From: Eggerthellaceae bacterium
GTDB lineage: Bacteria; Actinomycetota; Coriobacteriia; Coriobacteriales; Eggerthellaceae
Reading direction: 5' to 3'
DNA: 35,097 nt
Assembly (NCBI GenBank): GCA_017434045.1
Contig: JAFRGA010000053.1
Span: forward strand, 1-35,097
The notes under the pieces: generated by a model
The model's database searches: none
The model's input: only the letters and a program-made list of their open reading frames with translations
Told to the model about the DNA's origin: nothing
Translations under genes and position numbers: made by a program
Shown here: positions 7,566 to 13,289 of the stretch, piece by piece
How positions within the stretch are numbered: position 1 is the stretch's first letter
Layout: every line of letters starts with the position of its first letter

Positions 7566-8789
7566 GTGATAGGTATCTCTAAGCTGTATTGCGGTGCAGT
7601 CGAGCCATCTGACGTACTGCGTTACAAACGCCGCTCGAAGGAACTGCCGAGCGGACTTCTTCAATTCTCGAAGGACAAGAAGCCGGTCGTGGTGTGGAAT
7701 TGCACGAAGACGTGCAACCTGCGCTGCCAGCATTGCTATGCAGGTTCGGATGCGCAACGCTATGACCAGCTGAACACCGACGAGGCGAAGGCCATGATCG
7801 ACGACCTGGCAGCGTTCGGCTCTCCCGTGCTATTGTTCAGCGGCGGCGAGCCTTGCGTGCGCGAGGACCTGCTCGAGCTCATGCAGTACGCCAAGCAGGC
7901 GGGCATGCGCGTGGTGATCTCGACGAACGGCACGCTCATCACGCCCGATTTGGCCCGTCAGTTCGCCGAGGTTGGGCTTTCGTATGTGGGCATATCCATC
8001 GACGGCAAGCGCGAGACGCACGACGCCTTCCGCGGTGTGCCCGGTGCGTTCGATCGCTCACTTGAAGGCGTGGCCAACGCGAAGGCGGCAGGCATCAAGG
8101 TGGGCTTGCGCTTCACGATCAGCAAGTTGAACTACACCGAGGTCGACGACGTGTTCGACATCATGCGCGAACACGGCATACAGAGGGCTTGCTTCTACCA
8201 TCTGGTCTACACCGGTCGTGGCTCCGAGATGATGGACCTCGATCTGACACACGAGCAGACACGCGCTGTCGTGCGCCGCATCATGGACCGCACCAAAGCC
8301 TGGTTCGACGAAGGTGGCACACCCGAGATCCTGACGGTGGACAACCATGCCGACGCCCCGTTCGTGTACATGGAGCTGTTAAAGGAAGACCCAGAGCGCG
8401 CCGAAGCCGTCATGCAGCTGCTCAAATGGAATCAGGGGAACTCGACGGGCAACGGAATCTCGTGTGTGAGCTGGGATGGCGAAGTGTATGCCGACCAGTT
8501 CTGGCGTCATTTCAGCTTCGGGAACGTTCGGAATCGGCCGTTCTCGGAGATATGGACGGACGTGAGCCGCACGACCGAGCAGAGCGAGCTCATGTACCGC
8601 CTCAAGGATAAGAGGCCTTTCGTGAAAGGGCGTTGCCGCGAGTGCCGCTTCCTCGACGTCTGCGGCGGGAACTTCCGCGTGCGCGCCGAGGCGGCGACGG
8701 GTGACCTGTGGGCTCCCGACCCGGCGTGTTACCTCACCGATGAGGAGATTGCCCCCGAAAAAAGCATTAAAGGGGACTGTCCCCTTTAA
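7566..8789 (+). CDS. ahbC: AhbC-type 12,18-didecarboxysiroheme deacetylase (radical SAM)
   Basis: A 407-residue radical SAM enzyme. The N-terminal MIGISKLYCGAVEPSDVLRY stretch is characteristic of the AhbC/NirJ1 group. The radical SAM cluster is CNLRCQHC preceded by the first cysteine spacing CX3CX2C at C50, C54 and C57. A second cysteine set near the C-terminus (CRECRFLDVCGGNF and a later Cys) should hold an auxiliary 4Fe-4S cluster. AhbC removes the two acetate side chains of 12,18-didecarboxysiroheme to give Fe-coproporphyrin III in the siroheme-dependent heme pathway. The start is a GTG at 7566 with GGAG 7 bases upstream. The last eight residues (SIKGDCPL) and the stop are encoded by a palindromic repeat, so the original C-terminus was probably altered. 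The neighbouring ahbD-ahbA-ahbB fusion supports the assignment over NirJ of heme d1 synthesis. Confidence 0.88.
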   Translation: MIGISKLYCGAVEPSDVLRYKRRSKELPSGLLQFSKDKKPVVVWNCTKTCNLRCQHCYAGSDAQRYDQLNTDEAKAMIDDLAAFGSPVLLFSGGEPCVREDLLELMQYAKQAGMRVVISTNGTLITPDLARQFAEVGLSYVGISIDGKRETHDAFRGVPGAFDRSLEGVANAKAAGIKVGLRFTISKLNYTEVDDVFDIMREHGIQRACFYHLVYTGRGSEMMDLDLTHEQTRAVVRRIMDRTKAWFDEGGTPEILTVDNHADAPFVYMELLKEDPERAEAVMQLLKWNQGNSTGNGISCVSWDGEVYADQFWRHFSFGNVRNRPFSEIWTDVSRTTEQSELMYRLKDKRPFVKGRCRECRFLDVCGGNFRVRAEAATGDLWAPDPACYLTDEEIAPEKSIKGDCPL

Positions 8790-8793
8790 TGCT
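8763..8793. repeat. 31-bp perfect palindrome spanning the ahbC stop
   Basis: Fifteen bases on each side of T8778 are perfect complements (arms AGCATTAAAGGGGAC and its reverse complement). The palindrome codes the last residues of AhbC and contains its TAA at 8787-8789. It lies 34 bases before the next start, so its transcript would fold into a strong hairpin between the two cistrons. Its G/C-run design resembles palindromes at 16643, 19868 and 20609. Confidence 0.9.
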
Positions 8794-8827
8794 GAATGGT
8801 ATCGGTCACCGAGAAAGGTTCGAGCTC

Positions 8828-11191
8828 ATGAGCCAGAGCTATGCAGGCAACGGGCATCCGCATACTGGCGGCCATCCTGGGTCGCAAGCGGGCGGCGCGC
8901 GCTCGTATCGCCCGGGCGCAGGTGCGGCCGCACGCGCGTTCGAGGAACGCACGGGCATCAAGGCACCGCGCATCATCGCCTGGGAGATCACGCGCAGCTG
9001 TAACTTGTCGTGTGCTCATTGCCGTGCGGCGGCTCATTGCGAGCCGTATCCGGGCGAGCTTTCCCTCGACGAGTGCAAGCAGGTCATGGACGATATCGCG
9101 AGCATAACCGACCCCATTCTCATCCTCACGGGGGGCGAGCCGCTCATGCGCCCCGACATCTGGGAGATCATCGACTATGCGCATCAGAAGGGGCTCCATC
9201 CGGTTATCGGGACGAACGGCACGCTCATCGACGACGAATGCGCGGCGAAGATCGCATCGCACGGGATCCCGCGCGTGTCGGTTTCCCTCGACTTTCCCGA
9301 TGCGGCGGGTCAAGATGCGTTCCGTGGGAAGGCCGGTGCGTTCGAAGAGACCCTAACCGGTATGCGCAACCTGCGCGAACACGGCGTGGGCGTGCAGGTG
9401 AACACGACTATCACCAAGCTGAACAGCCATCTGGTCGACGAGATGCACGACCTGGCGCTGCGCGAGGGAGCCGATGCGTTTCACCCGTTCCTGCTCGTGC
9501 CGACGGGCCGTGGCGAGGACCTCGTAGACGTGGAGTTGACGCCTGATGAATACGAAGAGGTGCTCACCTGGGCTTACCATTGCCAGAAGGCAAGCCCGAT
9601 GCATTTCAAGCCCACCGATGCGCCGCAGTATTACCGCATCATCCGCCAGCTGAGCGCTCTGGAGAAATCTGACGGCACGCAAGACGCGCTTGCCTCCGGT
9701 CACGGCGCGGGAAAGGCCGCTTCCTTCGGCCAATCGCGCCCCGCTCCCTCGCCAGGCTCCTCCAAAGTGGAGGATTCGGATCAAGCAGCGCTGGCCAGGC
9801 GGTTTGGCATGGAGGCCCTCACGCGCGGTTGCCTCGGCGGCATCACGTTCGCGTTCATCAGCCATGTGGGCGATGTCCAGCCGTGCGGATACTTCGACAT
9901 GCAACTGGGCAATGTGAAGGAGACGCCGTTCTCCCAGATTTGGGAAACGTCCCCGGTTTTCGATGACTTGCGTCATTTCGACCGCTTGAAGGGGAAGTGC
10001 GGCGCATGCGAGTACAAGGGCGTGTGCGGCGGATGCCGTGCGCGGGCGTTGGCGGCGAGCGGCGACTACCTGGCCGAAGAGCCCTATTGCGCCTACATCC
10101 CGCGCAAGGAGGCGAGAAAGCGCGTGCTCGAGGAGATCCAGAGCGAGTTTCCGCTTGTGCACGACCCATATGGTGAGCTTGCCGATCGCTTGGGGCTTTC
10201 GCGCGAGCAAGTGCTTGATTCGATGTCGTCGATGCGTGCGGATGGGACTATCCGTCAGATAGGCGCATCCATCGCCTCGAAGAAGCTCGGCTACACCTCG
10301 ACGCTCGTCGCAGTCAAGGTTGCGGGCGACCAGGACGCCGTCGACTACGCAGCTGAACTGATCAGCGCACATTCCGAGGTGACGCACAACTACCTTAGGC
10401 CAGCGGAGTTCAACGTCTGGTTCACCGCCATTGCTCCCTCCCAGGAGCGCCTGGCGCAGCTCGTCGAAGAAGTTGCCGCAGAAACTGGTTGCGAGGACAT
10501 CTTGAACCTGCCTGTCACCGCCATGTTCAAGATACGCGTTGATTTCAGCAAACACGGCCAGGAGGGGCAGTCAAGAGCTCTTGGCCGCACTCTTGCGAAA
10601 TCTGGGCGGCCGCATCACAAAGGGTCGTGTCATGGGACGTCGTGTCCGCCCGAACTAGCGGATAAAGCTGAGCGTGCCCATCGCAGGGCGTTCGGGAAAA
10701 CGTCGTTCGACGCAGCGGACCCATTCGATGTGGCGCTTGTGCGCTGGGCTTCGATAGACGCGTCAGGCGAGCATCCGTTCCAGGATGCCGCGCGCTGCAT
10801 TTCCGCCCAGATCGGTGAGACTGTAGATGAAGAGCGTGTCATCGCGCGTTTGGAACAGTGGAAGTCGGAGGGTCTCGTGCGCCGCTTCGGTGCCTTCGTG
10901 CGCCACCAGAACCTCGGATATGCCTTCAACGGGATGGCTGTTTGGAACATCCCTGACGAGCGCGCATGCGAGATCGGGCATCTTTTCGCGCAATTGCCCT
11001 ATGTATCGCATTGTTACTGCCGTCCGTATTCCCAAAAATGGCCGTACAACCTCTATACGATGGTGCATGCGAAGACGCAGGAAGAGCTCGATGCGTACGT
11101 TTCGGAGATGGAGGCTCTAAGCGGCCTCGAAGCGCGCGTCCTCGTCTCGACGAAAGAGTACAAGAAGAGCCTGCCCGTGTATTTCGCCTGA
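8828..11191 (+). CDS. ahbD: Fused AhbD heme synthase + AhbA-like + AhbB-like siroheme decarboxylase
   Basis: A 787-residue three-part protein. Residues of about 45-425 are a radical SAM enzyme with CX3CX2C at C58, C62 and C65, a GGEP motif, and a C-terminal auxiliary cluster region (CGACEYKGVCGGCRARAL from about residue 391). This matches AhbD, which decarboxylates Fe-coproporphyrin III to heme b. Residues of about 428-575 are a first Lrp/AsnC-like unit (YGELADRLGLSREQV, RQIGASIASKKLGY), AhbA-like. Residues of about 630-787 are a second (RRFGAFVRHQNLGYAFNGM, SQKWPYNLYTMVH), AhbB-like, the siroheme decarboxylase pair. A low-complexity insert lies at about 280-320 and a basic linker at 580-628. 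The ATG at 8828 has AAAGG nine bases upstream; an ATG at 8789 lies inside the palindrome and is less likely. AhbA and AhbB are normally separate proteins. Confidence 0.87.
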   Translation: MSQSYAGNGHPHTGGHPGSQAGGARSYRPGAGAAARAFEERTGIKAPRIIAWEITRSCNLSCAHCRAAAHCEPYPGELSLDECKQVMDDIASITDPILILTGGEPLMRPDIWEIIDYAHQKGLHPVIGTNGTLIDDECAAKIASHGIPRVSVSLDFPDAAGQDAFRGKAGAFEETLTGMRNLREHGVGVQVNTTITKLNSHLVDEMHDLALREGADAFHPFLLVPTGRGEDLVDVELTPDEYEEVLTWAYHCQKASPMHFKPTDAPQYYRIIRQLSALEKSDGTQDALASGHGAGKAASFGQSRPAPSPGSSKVEDSDQAALARRFGMEALTRGCLGGITFAFISHVGDVQPCGYFDMQLGNVKETPFSQIWETSPVFDDLRHFDRLKGKCGACEYKGVCGGCRARALAASGDYLAEEPYCAYIPRKEARKRVLEEIQSEFPLVHDPYGELADRLGLSREQVLDSMSSMRADGTIRQIGASIASKKLGYTSTLVAVKVAGDQDAVDYAAELISAHSEVTHNYLRPAEFNVWFTAIAPSQERLAQLVEEVAAETGCEDILNLPVTAMFKIRVDFSKHGQEGQSRALGRTLAKSGRPHHKGSCHGTSCPPELADKAERAHRRAFGKTSFDAADPFDVALVRWASIDASGEHPFQDAARCISAQIGETVDEERVIARLEQWKSEGLVRRFGAFVRHQNLGYAFNGMAVWNIPDERACEIGHLFAQLPYVSHCYCRPYSQKWPYNLYTMVHAKTQEELDAYVSEMEALSGLEARVLVSTKEYKKSLPVYFA

Positions 11192-12200: not shown

Positions 12201-12302
12201 ACTGTCCGTCCACGAGGGCTTCGTCGAAGGCCGCCGGCCGGCCCGATGGCGGCTCGCCCGGCCTGCATGAGGCCCCTTCGCGCTTTGGGGTTCGCCCGCC
12301 CG

Positions 12303-12483
12303 AAGGGGTTCGCCTACGGCCCTCCGGCGGTAATGGCTTCGCCCATACGCCGCATCGTTGCCCGCCTGCCGGGTTGTCCGTCCGGAGGGGTTCGCCTACA
12401 GCCCTCCGGCGGTAATGATCAGACTTGCACGCAACATCGTTGCCCGCCTGCGGAAGCGGCTCACCACTCCGGACGGACGACCC
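12303..12483 (+). repeat. GC-rich dispersed repeat, two tandem copies
   Basis: Two copies of a unit built on GGGGTTCGCCTAC(A/G)GC, followed by CCTCCGGCGGTAATG, start at 12305 and 12387, 82 bases apart. Each is followed by a shared CATCGTTGCCCGCCTGC tail. The stretch 12376-12472 recurs at 34827-34923 with one mismatch in 97 positions. No transposase or coding frame is associated with it. Another partial copy, inverted, lies at 13333-13348. Confidence 0.9.
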
Positions 12484-12613: not shown

Positions 12614-13289
12614 TGCACTTCGCCCTTATTCCTGCACGATGCCGTGCACTTCCCCGAAATCCTTGCATCGACGCGAACTCGTGCAAGGAAACAGGCGAAG
12701 TGCACGGATGCCTGCAAGGAAATGGCGGAAGTGCACGCCGAAACGGGCGTCTGGCGGGCCTTTTGACGTGCACTTCCCCCAAATCCTTGCACGAAATTGC
12801 GCTCCTGCAGGAAAACGTGCGAAGTGCACGGCTGCCTGCAAGGAATTGGTCGAAGTGCATGGCAGGGGTGCAACCAGCTGCAAGGAAACGTGCGAAGTGC
12901 ACGGCCGGCTGCAGGAAAAGCAGGGAAATGCACGACAAGGATGCGGCCAGCTGCAGAGAAATGGGCGAAGCGCGCGGCCGGCTGCAGGAAAAGCCGGGAA
13001 GTGCACGGCGGGGGTGCAACCAGCTGCAAGGAAACGGGCAAAGTGCACGGCCGGCTGCAGGAAAAGGGGAGAAGTGCACGCGAGCGTTAGAGCTAGGCCC
13101 TTTCCGTACATTTCCCCATCACCCCTGCACCTGGAAGATTTCATGCAAGGATAGGGGGGAAATGTACGACAACCTGCAGCGAAACGGGGGAAATGGGCGG
13201 AAAACCACGTGCCGCGCAGGTCGAAAACGTTCATTTCCAGCATATCTCTGCACGAGTTTTCCTACGTGCAGCAAATGCGGGGAACTGCA
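12614..13289. repeat. Ordered array of eighteen 23-bp TGCA-ended units
   Basis: Every unit is exactly 23 bp. In its forward sense it begins TGCA (18 of 18), has AA at positions 17-18 (18 of 18), and usually ends GAAGTGCA; the middle is variable. Forward units start at 12682, 12713, 12806, 12837, 12879, 12910, 12952, 12983, 13025, 13056, 13144, 13175 and 13267. Inverted units start at 12614, 12645, 12769, 13107 and 13230. Gaps are 8, 14 or 19 bases, except for three module junctions of 28-33 bases. The 14-base gap always separates an inverted unit from a forward one; 8-base gaps join members of same-orientation pairs; 19-base gaps join successive forward pairs. The steps of 31 and 42 bp are not compatible with one reading frame, so open frames here are by-products. 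No known element was recognised. Confidence 0.93.

Follow-up and report, generated by a model that had tools for sequence, protein, structure and literature searches.

An Eggerthellaceae bacterium from the gut or rumen encodes a single protein that unites the enzymes for the first and third steps from siroheme to heme. Its gene, at 8828-11191 on the forward strand of the window (the entire 35,097-nucleotide stretch of DNA analyzed), is one unbroken open reading frame of 787 aa, in which a histidine-rich tail is followed by AhbD (a radical SAM/SPASM heme synthase), AhbA, a linker and AhbB. In the siroheme route, AhbAB carries out step 1, AhbC step 2 and AhbD step 3. We consider it very probable that the fusion serves siroheme-dependent heme synthesis as a bifunctional enzyme that works with AhbC in trans, and that it stems from a one-time merger of cistrons with later fission. 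The C-terminal AhbA-AhbB half would fold as one alpha+beta barrel and convert siroheme to 12,18-didecarboxysiroheme, the separate AhbC would convert this to Fe-coproporphyrin III, and the N-terminal AhbD half would then form heme b by radical SAM oxidative decarboxylation. The likely effect of the fusion would be equimolar output and co-location of the two enzymes.

The fused reading frame is real and under selection

Residues of the fusion are numbered here from the ATG at 8828. The frame remains open as far upstream as an alternative in-frame ATG at 8789, but 8828 is the better start because it is preceded by a putative Shine-Dalgarno-like GAAAGG (8813-8818, forward strand), while the ATG at 8789 sits in a dispersed palindrome. 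Compared with the aligned fusion L038, differences at codon positions 1, 2 and 3 number 19/11/82 in the AhbD core, 18/10/67 in AhbA and 21/9/63 in AhbB. This excess of third-position changes, which holds for each of the enzyme parts when the nearest relatives are compared, indicates that all three are constrained at the protein level; by the same codon-position comparison with L038, the tail, an insert in AhbD and the linker are under looser constraint than the enzyme parts.

A search of genome contigs recovered the three-part frame in the Berryella wangjianweii chromosome (L044), Slackia exigua ATCC 700122 (L052), Hugonella massiliensis (L049), Gordonibacter sp. Marseille-P4307 and many MAGs. 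While the fragmented source assembly (103 contigs) could raise the suspicion of a sequencing or assembly artifact, the same frame in Berryella, Slackia, Hugonella and many MAGs refutes that reading, which retains practically no probability. Together with the third-position excess, conservation of the frame in independent genomes marks the fusion as a real, selected protein rather than chance read-through. The single AhbD-AhbA-AhbB protein proposed by an earlier sequence-only reading is thus confirmed, with one frame, profile matches in the order D-A-B and occurrence in independent genomes.

Family identity of the three enzyme parts

We compared each segment with NCBIfam profiles. The AhbA part (siroheme decarboxylase alpha; residues 431-573, 10118-10546, forward strand) scores 186.6 bits against NF040708 (cut-off, 140) and the AhbB part (siroheme decarboxylase beta; residues 649-781, 10772-11170, forward strand) scores 212.5 bits against NF040707 (cut-off, 125). 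Between them lies a length-variable linker region (10547-10771, forward strand) that contains HHKGSCHGTSCPP and is partly of low confidence in the structural model. The HXYXR siroheme-pocket motif described for AhbA/B (PMC4145669) occurs as HNYLR in the AhbA part (residues 520-524, 10385-10399, forward strand) and, on motif inspection, as HCYCR in the AhbB part (residues 728-732, 11009-11023, forward strand), and both copies are kept in 18/18 Eggerthellaceae-type fusions examined, including the one in the window. Among solved structures, the C-terminal 360 residues match Desulfovibrio AhbA (4czd_A, E = 1.7e-33) and AhbB (4czd_B, E = 1.2e-19) as well as NirDL. A Pfam search gave no match for the second HTH, that of AhbB.

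Because AhbA and AhbB have the Lrp/AsnC fold, and heme binding is reported for the AhbA/B complexes of some species (PMC4145669), the C-terminal half might instead be a pair of heme-sensing Lrp/AsnC regulators that control the AhbD step. We rejected this reading as highly improbable: both parts score above the equivalog cut-offs, both HXYXR motifs are intact and Lrp-type regulator structures match the C-terminal 360 residues only at E of about 1e-3 (9e-4, versus 1.7e-33 for 4czd_A). The possibility raised earlier that these segments would resemble Lrp regulators more than AhbA/B, or lack the pocket residues, is therefore not borne out.

For the AhbD part (radical SAM plus SPASM; residues 49-425, 8972-10102, forward strand), TIGR04545 is the top family with a lead of more than 125 bits, but the score of 463.4 bits falls under the curated NCBIfam cut-off of 500, which is an annotation threshold and not a biochemical feature. 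Fused relatives without the insert score 484-496 bits, the split sister L058 scores 504.9 bits and split Eggerthellaceae AhbD proteins score 481-505 bits. Since the split proteins also lie near the cut-off, the low score looks like lineage divergence plus the effect of the insert, a low-confidence stretch of 40 residues ahead of the SPASM core (9674-9793, forward strand; delineated by alignment and model) that accounts for part of the loss and is found, among the aligned fusions, otherwise only in L038. A different enzyme such as NirJ2 was rejected for this part, because the NirJ2 profile trails TIGR04545 by 125 bits and some of the lost score is due to the insert.

Signature motifs agree with this assignment. 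The radical SAM cluster motif is CNLSCAHC (CX3CX2C; residues 58-65, 8999-9022, forward strand). AhbD of methanogens and sulfate reducers carries two auxiliary clusters with the motifs CX17C and CX2CX5CX2CX17C (PMC10452713), and both are present: the first, with AuxI ligands, at residues 335-353 (9830-9886, forward strand) and the second, with the AuxII ligands and the last AuxI ligand, at residues 391-421 (9998-10090, forward strand). Seven SPASM cysteines are in register and C252 is a candidate eighth, being the putative first SPASM cysteine and remaining AuxI ligand, at a spacing lengthened by the insert. On these motifs and the best-matching family, the N-terminal half appears AhbD-like, with the sub-cut-off score as a reservation.

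An AlphaFold2 model of the fusion, built from a 38-row alignment (mean pLDDT, 81; pTM, 0.61), likewise matches the expected enzymes, its best PDB matches being the siroheme decarboxylase NirDL (4ch7, E = 6.5e-24, TM = 0.72 by target length) and the SPASM enzymes SuiB and PqqE, to which the AhbD part corresponds. For Methanosarcina barkeri AhbD, too, SuiB has been reported as the top structural relative (PMC10452713). The AhbAB half is accordingly predicted to have a NirDL-like fold; with a pTM of 0.61 and no error matrix, we drew no domain arrangement from the model. Overall, profiles, structure matches and signature motifs support the enzyme identities of the sequence-only reading, with steps 1 and 3 in one chain.

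Distribution and history of the fusion

AhbA was detected in 36 of 138 Eggerthellaceae genomes. Counted from open-frame lengths, 18 of these carriers have AhbA fused to AhbD, 17 have ahbAB apart from AhbD, and one, at a contig edge, is counted in neither group. All AhbA carriers in the genus of the window are fused (8/8), and all those in genus g132 are split (3/3). In the split relatives, ahbAB lies immediately downstream of ahbD, either overlapping it or after a short gap; for example, the ahbD stop of L058 overlaps the ahbAB start (CCTGATGAG), and ahbAB of L042 begins a few bases past the ahbD stop. AhbA-AhbB is a single chain in relatives with a separate AhbD, and this join is older than the fusion with AhbD.

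In a tree of AhbD, 17 fused rows group with the split rows L042 and L058 in one clade (support, 100/99), with the two split rows nested inside it (99/95), although strict monophyly of the fused rows is not rejected (AU test, P = 0.108). The simplest and most likely reading of this tree is one fusion and one later fission, a direction that rests on the Coriobacteriia outgroups. An ancestor within the Eggerthellaceae would have lost the stop that separated adjoining ahbD and ahbAB cistrons, giving the fusion, and a single fission would have followed in one sister genus.

A separate AhbD-AhbA-AhbB fusion occurs in the rumen genome RUG14528 (L056, 6792-9200), outside the Eggerthellaceae fused clade. 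It is without the tail, its linker carries VRQQEGGSQ repeats, and the position of the second HXYXR is taken by SHCVLR. A common origin with the Eggerthellaceae fusion was rejected on the AhbD tree (AU test, P = 0.006), with caution for long branches. G369, considered as another fusion of the L056 class, was also rejected: ahbD and ahbAB lie in separate frames there despite a reported open frame. Six other Eggerthellaceae genomes (G030, G070, G138, G208, G009 and G175; L149-L154) have a fused AhbAB with an AhbC-like gene near it, and no close AhbD was found in them. The best candidate for AhbD there, a radical SAM protein of ~340 aa (319-338 bits), lies at least 9 kb from ahbAB, and the candidates read in L149 and L150 are without a His tail.

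AhbC and the possible benefit of fusion

Directly upstream of the fusion lies ahbC (7566-8789, forward strand), which encodes the radical SAM/SPASM 12,18-didecarboxysiroheme deacetylase of the middle step and scores 654.9 bits against TIGR04546 (cut-off, 650), so the adjoining AhbC gene named by the sequence-only reading holds up. A palindrome, AGCATTAAAGGGGACTGTCCCCTTTAATGCT, spans the ahbC stop codon at 8763-8793 and provides the final codons and stop of that gene. In a genome-wide pattern count, its core AAAGGGGACNGTCCCCTTT occurs at 16 sites, compared with 0 for a reversed-pattern control.

Two benefits had been suggested for the fusion, and neither is supported as stated. The first was a 1:1 ratio of the two decarboxylase units, but AhbA and AhbB already form one chain in relatives with a separate AhbD, so this ratio is independent of the AhbD fusion. 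The second was channeling of unstable intermediates; because AhbC acts between steps 1 and 3, the substrate of AhbD is not the product of AhbAB and direct channeling between the fused halves is impossible. Channeling by way of a docked AhbC is possible, with the fusion acting as a scaffold that passes intermediates from AhbAB to AhbC to AhbD. The siroheme route is an anaerobic pathway with reactive intermediates, and the AhbC gene adjoins the fusion in the window and is near it in many relatives. However, AhbC is separately encoded, in many fused genomes it is about 0.7-1 kb or more away, and the pTM of 0.61 gives no domain arrangement, which together make a scaffold unlikely. Less likely still, and a long shot, is a fuller scheme in which AhbC sits docked between the two halves of the fusion, no intermediate is released, and the N-terminal tail binds the iron-porphyrin product and passes it to cytochrome maturation.

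The fusion could also be a neutral merger of adjacent, co-translated cistrons that links the same enzymes without gain, an explanation compatible with the enzyme identities and one to which we give a little under an even chance. Half of the AhbA-carrying family members manage without the fusion, the sister-genus genomes L042, L058 and L160 are split and nested in the fused clade, and the lengths of the A-B linker vary widely among fusions (about 35 to 276 aa). A slight benefit, or none, would agree with this variation in linker length, with the fission and with the number of relatives that are split. On the other hand, the fused frame has been retained over about 17 diverse lineages, where one stop or frameshift would split it and only one fission is seen. 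The fused and split forms in sister genera offer a natural comparison for physical cooperation among siroheme-route enzymes.

A histidine-rich tail on AhbD

The fusion begins with a Gly/His/Pro tail (8828-8932, forward strand) that contains NGHPHTGGHPG and is, from comparison of N-termini, a short form of a (GHPGG)n tail; it is disordered in the model (pLDDT of about 30). In most Coriobacteriia examined (L018-L109), AhbD starts with Gly/His/Pro repeats such as GHPGGHPGGHP, whether fused or unfused, so we rejected the tail as a hallmark of the fusion. Across the class, it takes the form (GHPGG)n or GHPAG(V/I)P, with up to 17 GHP units in Berryella. A literature search found no mention of this His-rich tail in Coriobacteriia AhbD, to which the present analysis draws notice for the Eggerthellaceae heme synthase. 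It is possibly a metal- or heme-binding tail. The His-rich linker of haloarchaeal PitA binds Co2+ (PMC5746218), which may be taken as a suggestive parallel only.

Comparison with known heme synthesis proteins

Fusion of ahbAB and ahbD has been reported in five Methanomicrobia assemblies (cluster 36.2; PMC11237513). As described there, that protein likewise joins the siroheme decarboxylase AhbAB to the heme synthase AhbD; it is archaeal, whereas the Eggerthellaceae fusion is bacterial, clade-wide and equipped with a His-rich N-terminal tail. No report of a bacterial AhbD-AhbAB fusion was found in the open-licence papers searched. Since the same type of fusion is already reported in a few archaea, the Eggerthellaceae protein is a modest curiosity rather than a new system: a bacterial, clade-wide example of a fusion noted until now, in the literature searched, only in a few archaeal assemblies.

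In non-methanogenic archaea that make heme, ahbA and ahbB are as a rule fused (PMC3942049). AhbA-AhbB fusions and NirDL of Hydrogenobacter thermophilus (4ch7/4czc) share with the C-terminal half the two-domain, single-chain siroheme decarboxylase but, unlike the Eggerthellaceae fusion, are without an AhbD part. The AhbA, AhbB, AhbC and AhbD enzymes of Desulfovibrio and M. barkeri (PMC4145669, PMC10452713, PMC3942049) belong to the same families and have the same signature motifs, but are encoded by separate genes, versus one gene for D-A-B here. Haloarchaeal PitA similarly joins a terminal heme enzyme, ChdC, to an ABM-like domain and has a His-rich segment (PMC5746218), but its catalytic domain is unrelated, the segment is a linker rather than an N-terminus and the route is aerobic.

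Heme pathway context

Genes for siroheme supply are present on contig C97 of the same genome (HemA-CysG_N fusion, HemC and CobA-HemD fusion). Two of these are further fusions within the same pathway (L126, 1092-2657 and 3621-5168), joining HemA to the CysG N-terminal domain and CobA to HemD. HemE (over cut-off) and ChdC were found in 0 of 12 genomes searched, most of them fusion carriers; because the window's own assembly is only 77% complete, these absence calls rest mainly on relatives. The siroheme route is thus the one complete de novo path to heme that was seen, indicating that many Eggerthellaceae depend on it for heme. HemH ferrochelatase was detected in 10 of the 12 genomes (G276, G220, G284, G266, G250, G261, G255, G039, G223 and G272) and was not found in the 77%-complete assembly of the window. 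HemH without HemE or ChdC perhaps serves salvage of external porphyrin, or metalation of coproporphyrin for AhbD.

The window also encodes CcmE-, CcmF-, CcmA-, CcmB- and CcmC-like genes, a nitrite reductase-like cytochrome and a Cgr1-like cytochrome, and these cytochrome and cytochrome c maturation genes are consistent with a high demand for heme. Elsewhere in the window are two tandem repeats, at 12288-12451 (82 bases) and 12805-13080 (73 bases), the latter of which opens long, probably spurious frames on both strands.
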